A DNA stretch of 21,272 nucleotides from a virus, in IMG/VR virus record IMGVR_UViG_3300020141_000103, positions 1 to 21,272 of that record. One strand, written 5' to 3'. Each line of letters opens with the position of its first letter. The stretch's first letter is position 1. Of the stretch, positions 5,811 to 16,128 are shown one piece after another. The position numbers and the translations under genes were made by a program. Below the pieces are notes generated by a model, which saw only the letters and a program-made list of their open reading frames with translations, did no database searches and was not told the origin of the DNA.

Positions 5811-5839
5811 TTGACGTGACTGCTGTTAGGTTGTATAAT
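5811..5839 (+). promoter_or_regulatory. Near-consensus sigma-70 promoter for the AAA ATPase gene
   Basis: TTGACG at 5811-5816 (5 of 6 consensus) and TATAAT at 5834-5839 (6 of 6) are separated by exactly 17 bases. Transcription would start near 5846, giving a leader of about 43 bases with an AGGAG ribosome-binding site at 5879-5883 before the ATG at 5889. It lies just 8 bases past the previous stop codon. This suggests use of unmodified host RNA polymerase and therefore possible early expression (inference). Confidence 0.85.
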
Positions 5840-5888: not shown

Positions 5889-6986
5889 ATGAGCGAGATC
5901 CTTTCACGTACAGTTGGCCCTAAGGCAGCAAAAAAATCCCTTCGCCGTGCTTTTAAAGCCAAGCGTCCATTGTTCCTGTGGGGTCCTCCAGGCATTGGCA
6001 AGTCGGACATTGTTAAGCAAATGGGCGTTGAGCTCGAAGCTCACGTGATTGATATCCGTTTGAGCTTGTGGGAACCTACCGATATTAAAGGTATTCCGTT
6101 CTTTGACTCTAATAACAACAAGATGTCATGGGCTCCTCCGATTGAGTTACCTGATGCAGAAATGGCAGCAAAGCATAAACAAATTATCCTGTTCTTGGAT
6201 GAAATGAACAGTGCGGCGCCTAGTGTACAGGCAGCGGCTTATCAGTTGGTTTTGAACCGTCGTGTTGGTACTTACTACTTGCCAGATAATGTCCTAATTG
6301 TTGCCGCAGGTAACCGTGAAACTGACAAGGGTGTTACTTATCGTATGCCTGCTCCGTTGGCTAACCGTTTCGTTCACTTGGAAATGAAAGTTGACTGGGA
6401 AGATTACTTTGGTTGGGCTGTTGACAACAAGATCCATAAGGACGTAGTTGGCTTCTTGACCTTCTCTAAGAAAGACCTGTACGACTTTGATCCTAAGAGT
6501 GCGTCACGTGCCTTTGCTACTCCACGTAGCTGGTCATTTGTATCCGAACTGTTGTTTGATGACGACGAAGATACTGACACATTGACTGACTTGATTTCGG
6601 GTGCGGTTGGTGAAGGTCTTGCAGTTAAGTTTATGGCTCACCGTAAGATTAGCTCAAAGTTGCCTGATCCTACAGACATCTTAGCTGGCAAGGTTAAGAA
6701 GATGGACACTAAAGAAATCAGTGCTATGTACTCTTTGACTGTGTCATTGTGTTATGAATTGAAAGATGCCGCTGACAAAAACGACAAGAAGTTTAACGAC
6801 AAAGTTAACTACTTCTTCCAGTTTATGATGGATAATTTTGAAACTGAATTGGTTGTAATGGGTACTAAATTGGCGTTGACACAATATCAATTGCCATTGG
6901 ATCCAGATGAGATCAAGTGTTTTGATGACTTCCATGCCAAATATGGTAAGTACATTGCGGCAGCTACTGAAAAGCATTCACGCTAA
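5889..6986 (+). CDS. MoxR-like AAA+ ATPase
   Basis: A 365-aa AAA+ ATPase. Walker A is GPPGIGKS at residues 32-39, Walker B is ILFLDE at 100-105, sensor 1 is N142 in VAAGNRETDKG, and a likely arginine finger is R160 in APLANRF. The DxxxxDIKG-type loop (about 60-68) and the LPDN..IVAAGN layout fit the MoxR/CbbQ/NorQ branch. These proteins typically pair with VWA-domain partners to remodel or metallate target proteins. The adjacent 389-aa VWA protein is such a partner. The C-terminal 150 residues are an AAA lid plus a helical extension of unknown role. By eye, codon use (more AAG, GGT, CGT, AAC, GAC) is less AT-biased than in neighbouring genes, which fits high expression. The natural target in the phage is unknown. 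Confidence 0.92.
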   Translation: MSEILSRTVGPKAAKKSLRRAFKAKRPLFLWGPPGIGKSDIVKQMGVELEAHVIDIRLSLWEPTDIKGIPFFDSNNNKMSWAPPIELPDAEMAAKHKQIILFLDEMNSAAPSVQAAAYQLVLNRRVGTYYLPDNVLIVAAGNRETDKGVTYRMPAPLANRFVHLEMKVDWEDYFGWAVDNKIHKDVVGFLTFSKKDLYDFDPKSASRAFATPRSWSFVSELLFDDDEDTDTLTDLISGAVGEGLAVKFMAHRKISSKLPDPTDILAGKVKKMDTKEISAMYSLTVSLCYELKDAADKNDKKFNDKVNYFFQFMMDNFETELVVMGTKLALTQYQLPLDPDEIKCFDDFHAKYGKYIAAATEKHSR

Positions 6987-7002: not shown

Positions 7003-7031
7003 TTGACAGGAGCTTCGGCTCCTGTTATAAT
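7003..7031 (+). promoter_or_regulatory. Perfect consensus sigma-70 promoter for the VWA gene
   Basis: TTGACA at 7003-7008 and TATAAT at 7026-7031 both match the consensus at all six bases, with a 17-base spacer. The start would lie near 7038, followed by an AGGAG site at 7053-7057 and the ATG at 7064. The spacer and the end of the -35 box form a perfect hairpin (see the terminator entry), so promoter and terminator share the same bases. Confidence 0.9.
7006..7031 (+). terminator. UUCG-tetraloop hairpin, probable terminator of the AAA ATPase transcript
   Basis: Arms 7006-7013 (ACAGGAGC) and 7018-7025 (GCTCCTGT) pair perfectly over 8 bp around a TTCG loop closed by C-G, an exceptionally stable RNA tetraloop. 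The bases after it (TTATAATATAT) are AT-rich but not a clean T-run, so termination may be partial. It lies 19 bases after the ATPase stop codon. It doubles as the spacer of the following promoter. Confidence 0.6.
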
Positions 7032-7063
7032 ATATACATACAGTAAATATTTAGGAGCAGAAA

Positions 7064-8233
7064 ATGTCAAATTATTTAGATCCAATTGTTGATAAAATCA
7101 TTGTAGCACGAGTCGGCCTGCTACTGCGCCATCCGTTTTTTGGCAATATGGCTACTCGTCTTAAAATTGAAGACGCTACAGACTGGTGCGCTACTGCCGC
7201 AACTGACGGTCGCCATTTGTATTACAATCGAGACTTTTTTGCAGACTTGACTACCAAGCAGGTTGAGTTTGTTGTTGCACACGAAATCCTTCACAACGTT
7301 TTTGAGCACATGCTCCGTGTAGAAGGTCGTGATCGCAAAATTTGGAACATTGCCGCTGACTATTCAGTTAACGGCACATTGACACGTGACCGTATTGGTG
7401 AAGTTCCTCCTAAGATTAAAATCTTCCACGACACTAAGCACTACGGCAAAAGTTCAGAACAGATCTATGATGAGATCTATGAGACAATGGATGATGAAGA
7501 ATTGGATGCACTTGGCCAGTTATTAGACGAGCATATTGACTGGGAGAAGGAAGGCAAGGGTCGTCCTGCATACAGTAAAGAAGAGCTCAAGCAAATCCGT
7601 GATGAGATCAAAGAAGCTATGATGACAGCGGCTCAGGCGGCGGGTGCGGGAAATGTGCCTGCAGAGATCGGACGCATGATCAAAGAGCTTACAGAGCCTA
7701 AAATGAACTGGCGTGAAATCCTGCGTCAACAGATTCAGAGTACAATTAAAAACGACTACACCTTTATGCGTCCTAACCGCAAGGCTTGGCACATGAGTGC
7801 AATTTTGCCAGGTACTAATTACGACGAGACAATTGATATCTGTATTGCTATTGACATGTCTGGTTCAATTGGTGATGAACAGGCTAAGGACTTTATTAGC
7901 GAAATTAAAGGTATCATGGACGAGTACAAAGAGTACAAGATCAAATTGTGGTGCTTTGACACTAAGGTATACAATGAACAAGACTTTGACGGCTACGGTT
8001 CCGATATTATGGAATACGAAGTTAAAGGCGGCGGAGGTACCGAGTTTGATGCCAATTGGAATTACATGAAAGAGCATGATATTAATCCTAAGAAGTTCAT
8101 CATGTTTACAGACGGTTATCCTTGGGGTTCGTGGGGCGATGAAAATTACTGCGATACAGTATTCATCATCCACGGCAATAACACTATTGTTCCGCCATTC
8201 GGTGCTCACGCATACTATGAATTTAAAGATTGA
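7064..8233 (+). CDS. Metallopeptidase-like / VWA-domain protein, partner of the MoxR-type ATPase
   Basis: A 389-aa two-domain protein of the DUF2201 type. The N-terminal domain has an HEILH zinc-binding motif (H73-E74-H77) followed by WNIAADYSVN (94-103), the arrangement of putative metallopeptidases. A charged helical linker spans about 132-210. The C-terminal VWA-like domain has a complete MIDAS metal site: D264, S266 and S268 in DMSGS, T326 in GGGGTEF, and D350 in MFTDGYPWG. Such VWA proteins act with MoxR-family ATPases, here the upstream gene. Whether the HExxH site cleaves protein is not known. It has its own perfect promoter. The 3' end overlaps the next gene by 17 bases. Confidence 0.9.
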   Translation: MSNYLDPIVDKIIVARVGLLLRHPFFGNMATRLKIEDATDWCATAATDGRHLYYNRDFFADLTTKQVEFVVAHEILHNVFEHMLRVEGRDRKIWNIAADYSVNGTLTRDRIGEVPPKIKIFHDTKHYGKSSEQIYDEIYETMDDEELDALGQLLDEHIDWEKEGKGRPAYSKEELKQIRDEIKEAMMTAAQAAGAGNVPAEIGRMIKELTEPKMNWREILRQQIQSTIKNDYTFMRPNRKAWHMSAILPGTNYDETIDICIAIDMSGSIGDEQAKDFISEIKGIMDEYKEYKIKLWCFDTKVYNEQDFDGYGSDIMEYEVKGGGGTEFDANWNYMKEHDINPKKFIMFTDGYPWGSWGDENYCDTVFIIHGNNTIVPPFGAHAYYEFKD

Positions 8234-16094: not shown

Positions 16095-16119
16095 TAACTA
16101 CTATACTGTATAGTAGTTA
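16095..16119. repeat. 25-bp palindrome over the -10 box, probable operator
   Basis: Arms TAACTACTATA (16095-16105) and TATAGTAGTTA (16109-16119) are perfect 11-bp inverted repeats around CTG. The left arm contains the minus-strand -10 box (16105-16100), and the right arm lies inside the spacer, so a dimeric protein bound here would block RNA polymerase. No regulator gene is visible in the window. It could also form an RNA hairpin only if transcription started upstream. Confidence 0.6.
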
Positions 16120-16128
16120 TCTTGTCAA
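16100..16128 (-). promoter_or_regulatory. Sigma-70-type promoter for the glycosyltransferase operon
   Basis: On the minus strand TTGACA (16128-16123, 6 of 6) and TATAGT (16105-16100, 5 of 6) are spaced by 17 bases. Transcription would begin near 16093, just before the GGAGGT site and the GTG at 16080. It lies in the 60-bp gap between the tail genes and the 115-aa gene, so it can drive that operon separately from the late tail genes. Confidence 0.8.

Follow-up and report, generated by a model that had tools for sequence, protein, structure and literature searches.

The gap between the ATPase and VWA genes

The window, which is the whole 21,272-nt stretch of viral DNA analyzed here, carries an AAA/MoxR-type ATPase gene followed by a gene for a protein with DUF2201 metallopeptidase and VWA-like domains (the VWA gene), and the gap between them contains the element described below (Table 1). 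The family of the VWA gene is named "HNH endonuclease" by PHROG 1314, and this name has been copied into phage records; given the Pfam domains, it is probably wrong. Elsewhere in the window, a perfect 12-bp inverted repeat, CAGTATTGAAAGGTGCTTTCAATACTG, was noted at 296–322, within the ORF at 1–387.

Table 1. Coordinates of the features in the ATPase–VWA region of the window
Feature	Positions	Strand	Remarks
Sigma70-type promoter of the ATPase gene, TTGACG-N17-TATAAT	5811–5839	+	Ordinary, without conserved spacer hairpin; internal control
AAA/MoxR-type ATPase gene	5889–6986	+	Upstream transcript; phrog_1297, E = 1e-100; Pfam AAA, AAA_3
-35 hexamer TTGACA	7003–7008	+	ACA forms the first three stem bases
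8-bp hairpin ACAGGAGC(TTCG)GCTCCTGT	7006–7025	+	Probable 3′-end or terminator hairpin of the ATPase message, from covariation and strand-specific YNMG loops
Promoter spacer GGAGCTTCGGCTCCTGT	7009–7025	+	17 nt
Extended -10, TGT-TATAAT (TGTTATAAT)	7023–7031	+	TGT (7023–7025) forms the last three stem bases
-10 hexamer TATAAT	7026–7031	+
Tail TATAATATATAC, 3′ of the stem	7026–7037	+	Conserved, A+T-rich; the -10 hexamer occupies the usual place of the U-tract
Shine-Dalgarno sequence AGGAG of the VWA gene	7053–7057	+	Conserved in the gaps of relatives
DUF2201 metallopeptidase/VWA gene	7064–8233	+	Downstream transcript; Pfam DUF2201 metallopeptidase and VWA-like domain

The sequence of the gap contains, exactly as the first-pass annotation had described it at 7003–7031, a perfect TTGACA-N17-TATAAT promoter in which an 8-bp hairpin with a C(UUCG)G loop spans the spacer and the ACA of the -35 hexamer. 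The stem is perfect, with ACAGGAGC (7006–7013) pairing with GCTCCTGT (7018–7025) around the loop TTCG (7014–7017), and in RNA it could be extended by two further pairs, G-U and U-A. The predicted promoter is of the extended -10 sigma70 type, as it has a -35 hexamer, a spacer in the range of 16–18 nt and a TGN in front of TATAAT; this extension, the TGT at 7023–7025, was absent from the earlier description. Two perfect consensus promoters were found in the window, while 0.06 would be expected. The ACA at the end of the -35 hexamer is complementary to the TGT at the start of the extended -10, so that the promoter consensus by itself supplies the three outermost stem pairs; with a random spacer, a consensus promoter would have an 8-bp stem with a probability of ~0.0011 (~1 in 900). 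The fold of the 80-nt ATPase–VWA gap had a z score of -2.5 as RNA and -2.9 as DNA. Of the two parts of a canonical intrinsic terminator, the stem is present and the U-run is not. The consensus terminator scan of the window did not have this hairpin among its matches, which is explained by the fact that TATAATAT, the eight bases after the stem, contains only four T.

Conservation and covariation of the spacer hairpin

To compare this gap among relatives, two protein searches of viral contigs were used, which yielded 152 loci with both the ATPase and the VWA gene, and two more locus sets were added. The relatives that carry the element are a family of freshwater phages. The data showed that the spacer hairpin was present in all 138 distinct ATPase–VWA gaps of relatives with VWA proteins at least 71% identical. 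Among 52 distinct elements, the -35 hexamer, the 17-nt spacer length and the TGT were nearly invariant, nearly all had TATAAT or TATACT as the -10 hexamer, and 99.8% of the stem cells were paired. In the same set five pairs, located in the inner stem, were altered on both sides, and the covariation score was 0.504, versus 0.124 ± 0.018 for shuffled data; in slid control alignments pairing dropped to 60% or less. The inner stems seen in relatives included GGAGC, GGACC, CCTCC, CCGCC, CCACC and GGGTC, among others. The alignment of related gaps, which the first-pass annotation had proposed as a check, hence gave the predicted outcome, with the hexamers retained and the stem kept by compensatory changes. 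At least 55 changes of stem type were counted on a VWA tree of 169 tips, which indicates that either compensatory change or exchange of the whole element is frequent. The hairpin form of the full pattern occurred once per record and in the same gap each time (16 of 16 relative records, up to 165 kb). The spacer hairpin is not a result of chance. In one locus (L038) a gene of ~600 bp (2374–2994), judged by eye to be 2OG-Fe(II) oxygenase-like, is inserted and separates the hairpin promoter from the VWA gene.

Other promoters served as controls. The promoters of the ATPase genes of the same phages had equally good hexamers, and a conserved spacer stem was absent from them. Among 87 distinct TTGACA-N14-TGTTATAAT sites in viral contigs, chosen regardless of structure, 77 had no hairpin. 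A second palindromic promoter was noted on the minus strand of the window at 16095–16128, where TTGACA-N17-TATAGT overlaps a perfect 11-bp stem, TAACTACTATA(CAG)TATAGTAGTTA. It was not retained as another example, as the palindrome is found only in close relatives and is gone elsewhere though the promoter persists; this distribution suggests that it could be an operator or a recent hairpin. Further hairpin-promoter matches near the VWA genes of relatives were discarded as chance matches. Four loci in which the promoter has no hairpin (L214, L280, L258 and L381) were dismissed as counterexamples, each of them having a separate terminator.

Separate terminators in sister clades and other relatives

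To see how this gap is arranged outside of the element-bearing group, 112 distinct gaps from two sister clades, with VWA proteins at 52–57% and 59–66% identity, were compared to shuffled gaps as a baseline. A terminator consisting of a stem and a U-tract was found in 91 of the 112 gaps, versus 0.5–3% of the shuffled ones, and in 89 of these 91 it was followed, mostly 9–12 nt on, by a TTGACA/TATAAT promoter. Only 1 of 106 sister-clade promoters had a stem in its spacer. The relative L425, a jumbo-phage locus on a 372-kb contig with a VWA protein at 70% identity, has in this gap a stem of the same kind followed by a U-tract, TGACACCGCC(GAAA)GGCGGTGTCG-TTTTT, and no consensus -10 hexamer, and is thus a natural case in which the stem was kept and the promoter lost. 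Terminators were also present in the ATPase–VWA gap of Erwinia phage pEa_SNUABM_12 and Klebsiella phage W12-3. With terminators present in all these groups, a terminator between both genes is thus the usual state. In the clade of the window the terminator presumably shares its bases with the promoter, and this fused state would be derived.

Strand specificity of the loops

YNMG is a family of stable RNA tetraloops, of which UUCG is a member. On the plus strand, the loops of 44 of the 52 distinct VWA-linked hairpins had the YNMG form, versus 1 in 16 expected by chance, and this form was absent from the loops of the complementary strand. The ratio of G-U pairs to A-C mismatches, which was ~6 to 1 in distinct GC-rich elements from all contexts, favors RNA weakly. 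The strand specificity of the tetraloops suggests that selection probably acts on plus-strand RNA, that is, on read-through transcripts coming from the ATPase gene.

A probable fused terminator–promoter and alternative explanations

From the sequence comparisons, the 29 bp appear likely to be a fused terminator–promoter, which combines the end of the ATPase message with the start of the VWA gene. In its DNA form the element would be a strong extended -10 sigma70 promoter driving the VWA gene, and transcription would begin downstream of the -10 hexamer, so that the VWA message would not contain the hairpin. A polymerase reading through from the ATPase gene would generate the tetraloop-capped hairpin in the nascent RNA, which would end the ATPase message or define its 3′ terminus; we infer that it does so by terminating transcription. 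Such a fusion could be possible because the ACA at the end of the -35 hexamer and the TGT of the extended -10 are already complementary at 17-nt spacing. As these ends are fixed by the promoter, only the inner 5 bp and the loop are free, and those covary. The dual use of the same bases proposed in the first-pass annotation is consistent with the order of separate terminator and promoter in the sister-clade gaps and with the RNA-type loops. Its further proposals, termination at the hairpin and a link between the two genes, are not supported to the same degree, as the stem is not followed by a U-tract. As to such a link, a polymerase that pauses or terminates at the hairpin might occupy the downstream promoter, so that ATPase transcription and VWA initiation would exclude each other or be handed over, which we consider a speculative and rather unlikely extension. 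If it were true, the ratio of ATPase to VWA would be set by this element, and the overlapping switch would have been selected over a two-part terminator and promoter.

Some of the observations could also be explained without termination at the hairpin. It could be an RNA 3′-end protector or a processing stop, with the polymerase continuing, exonucleases trimming the RNA back as far as the stable tetraloop hairpin and the promoter being functionally separate. Stable, strand-specific tetraloops and a stem without a U-tract would be expected for such a role, but canonical U-tract terminators are located at the equivalent position in the sister clades, and L425 combines a stem of this kind with a U-tract, which makes this explanation unlikely, though it deserves consideration. 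Alternatively, the element could be a mobile cassette of the type described below for T4-like phages (PeSL), kept mainly as a site at which different phages recombine homologously, its regulatory role being secondary. The scatter of stem types over the VWA tree fits the exchange of whole elements, and the inserted gene of L038 lies directly behind the element; however, each record of a relative has a single copy, found in this gap every time, and hence no second copy for recombination inside a genome, and this origin seems quite improbable.

The fact that the stem is placed exactly between the hexamers, together with the z score of the DNA fold, could point to an inverted repeat that works as DNA, either as a cruciform or as a palindrome bound by a repressor, and switches the VWA promoter. 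However, the arms vary freely with pairing retained, while a protein-binding site would keep its sequence; the loop is non-palindromic and of the strand-specific YNMG type, including T/G ends that are unpaired in DNA; and a cruciform of 8 bp would be short. A role as DNA is accordingly very improbable. A chance palindrome in an ordinary promoter could profit from the complementary ends that come with the promoter consensus, but it is refuted by the conservation in every gap of the close relatives and by the covariation, which leaves it a negligible probability. Overall, the data support a real, conserved composite terminator–promoter, in which termination at the hairpin is putative and any coupling of the two genes hypothetical.

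Relation to known promoter and stem-loop units

T4-type phages carry promoter-early stem-loops (PeSLs), which are composite promoter/stem-loop cassettes (PMC4503421; PMC3950731). The element studied here resembles them in that a strong sigma70-like promoter and a conserved stem-loop are joined between genes. The stem-loop of PeSLs acts as a terminator; here the stem has no U-tract, and the comparison with the sister clades and L425, which have terminators in the same gap, would favor such a role. Further differences are the UNCG-like loops and the extended -10 of the element, and its single copy at a fixed gap, while PeSLs occur as many scattered copies of mobile cassettes in plastic regions. 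No T4 core marker genes were found among the proteins scanned in the window, the record being a 21-kb fragment. The genome of phage RB49, in which PeSLs were reportedly defined, was examined directly, and ~ten promoters with a stem inside the 17-nt spacer were found there (for example 43031-, TTGACAGGGGATCGGTGATCCCCTATACT). Hence a hairpin filling the spacer is not as unusual as the first-pass annotation had supposed. RB49 also has separate terminators followed by promoters (47732-, 45322- and 34481-); as in the sister clades, the position and the order of functions are the same as here, but the two elements lie side by side, have a real U-tract and share no bases.

The TTGACA-stem(UUCG)-TGTTATAAT layout was also found in other viral contigs, in front of gp44-like, gp32-like and other genes. 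Hairpin-in-spacer promoters with gp44/gp32-like genes downstream were seen in L179, L191, L209, L229 and L239, and in L189, L197, L198 and L245, where the identities of the clamp loader gp44 and the single-stranded DNA-binding protein gp32 were read by eye. The layout of these cases is the same, while the downstream genes are unrelated and the phages are different, so they are presumably independent, which suggests that spacer-hairpin promoters arose repeatedly before replication genes. In the archaeal virus HGTV-1, a motif of a TATA-like box and an inverted repeat is described as repeated before genes (PMC3950731); by this description, a promoter is combined with an inverted repeat as here, but the promoter is of the archaeal type. 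A literature search for spacer-embedded terminators gave no match. The architecture is thus already known, or at least recurrent, and is a compact form of the T4-type promoter-plus-terminator unit. What differs here is a single-copy, positionally fixed and strictly conserved element, in phages that may not be of the T4 type.

Implications

In these phages the same bases would be read under two codes, one for DNA recognition, held in the fixed hexamers, and one for RNA structure, held in the covarying stem. The sister clades represent the unfused state, against which the costs and benefits of overlapping can be tested. The data also suggest that such elements in phage genomes escape terminator searches in which a U-tract is required.
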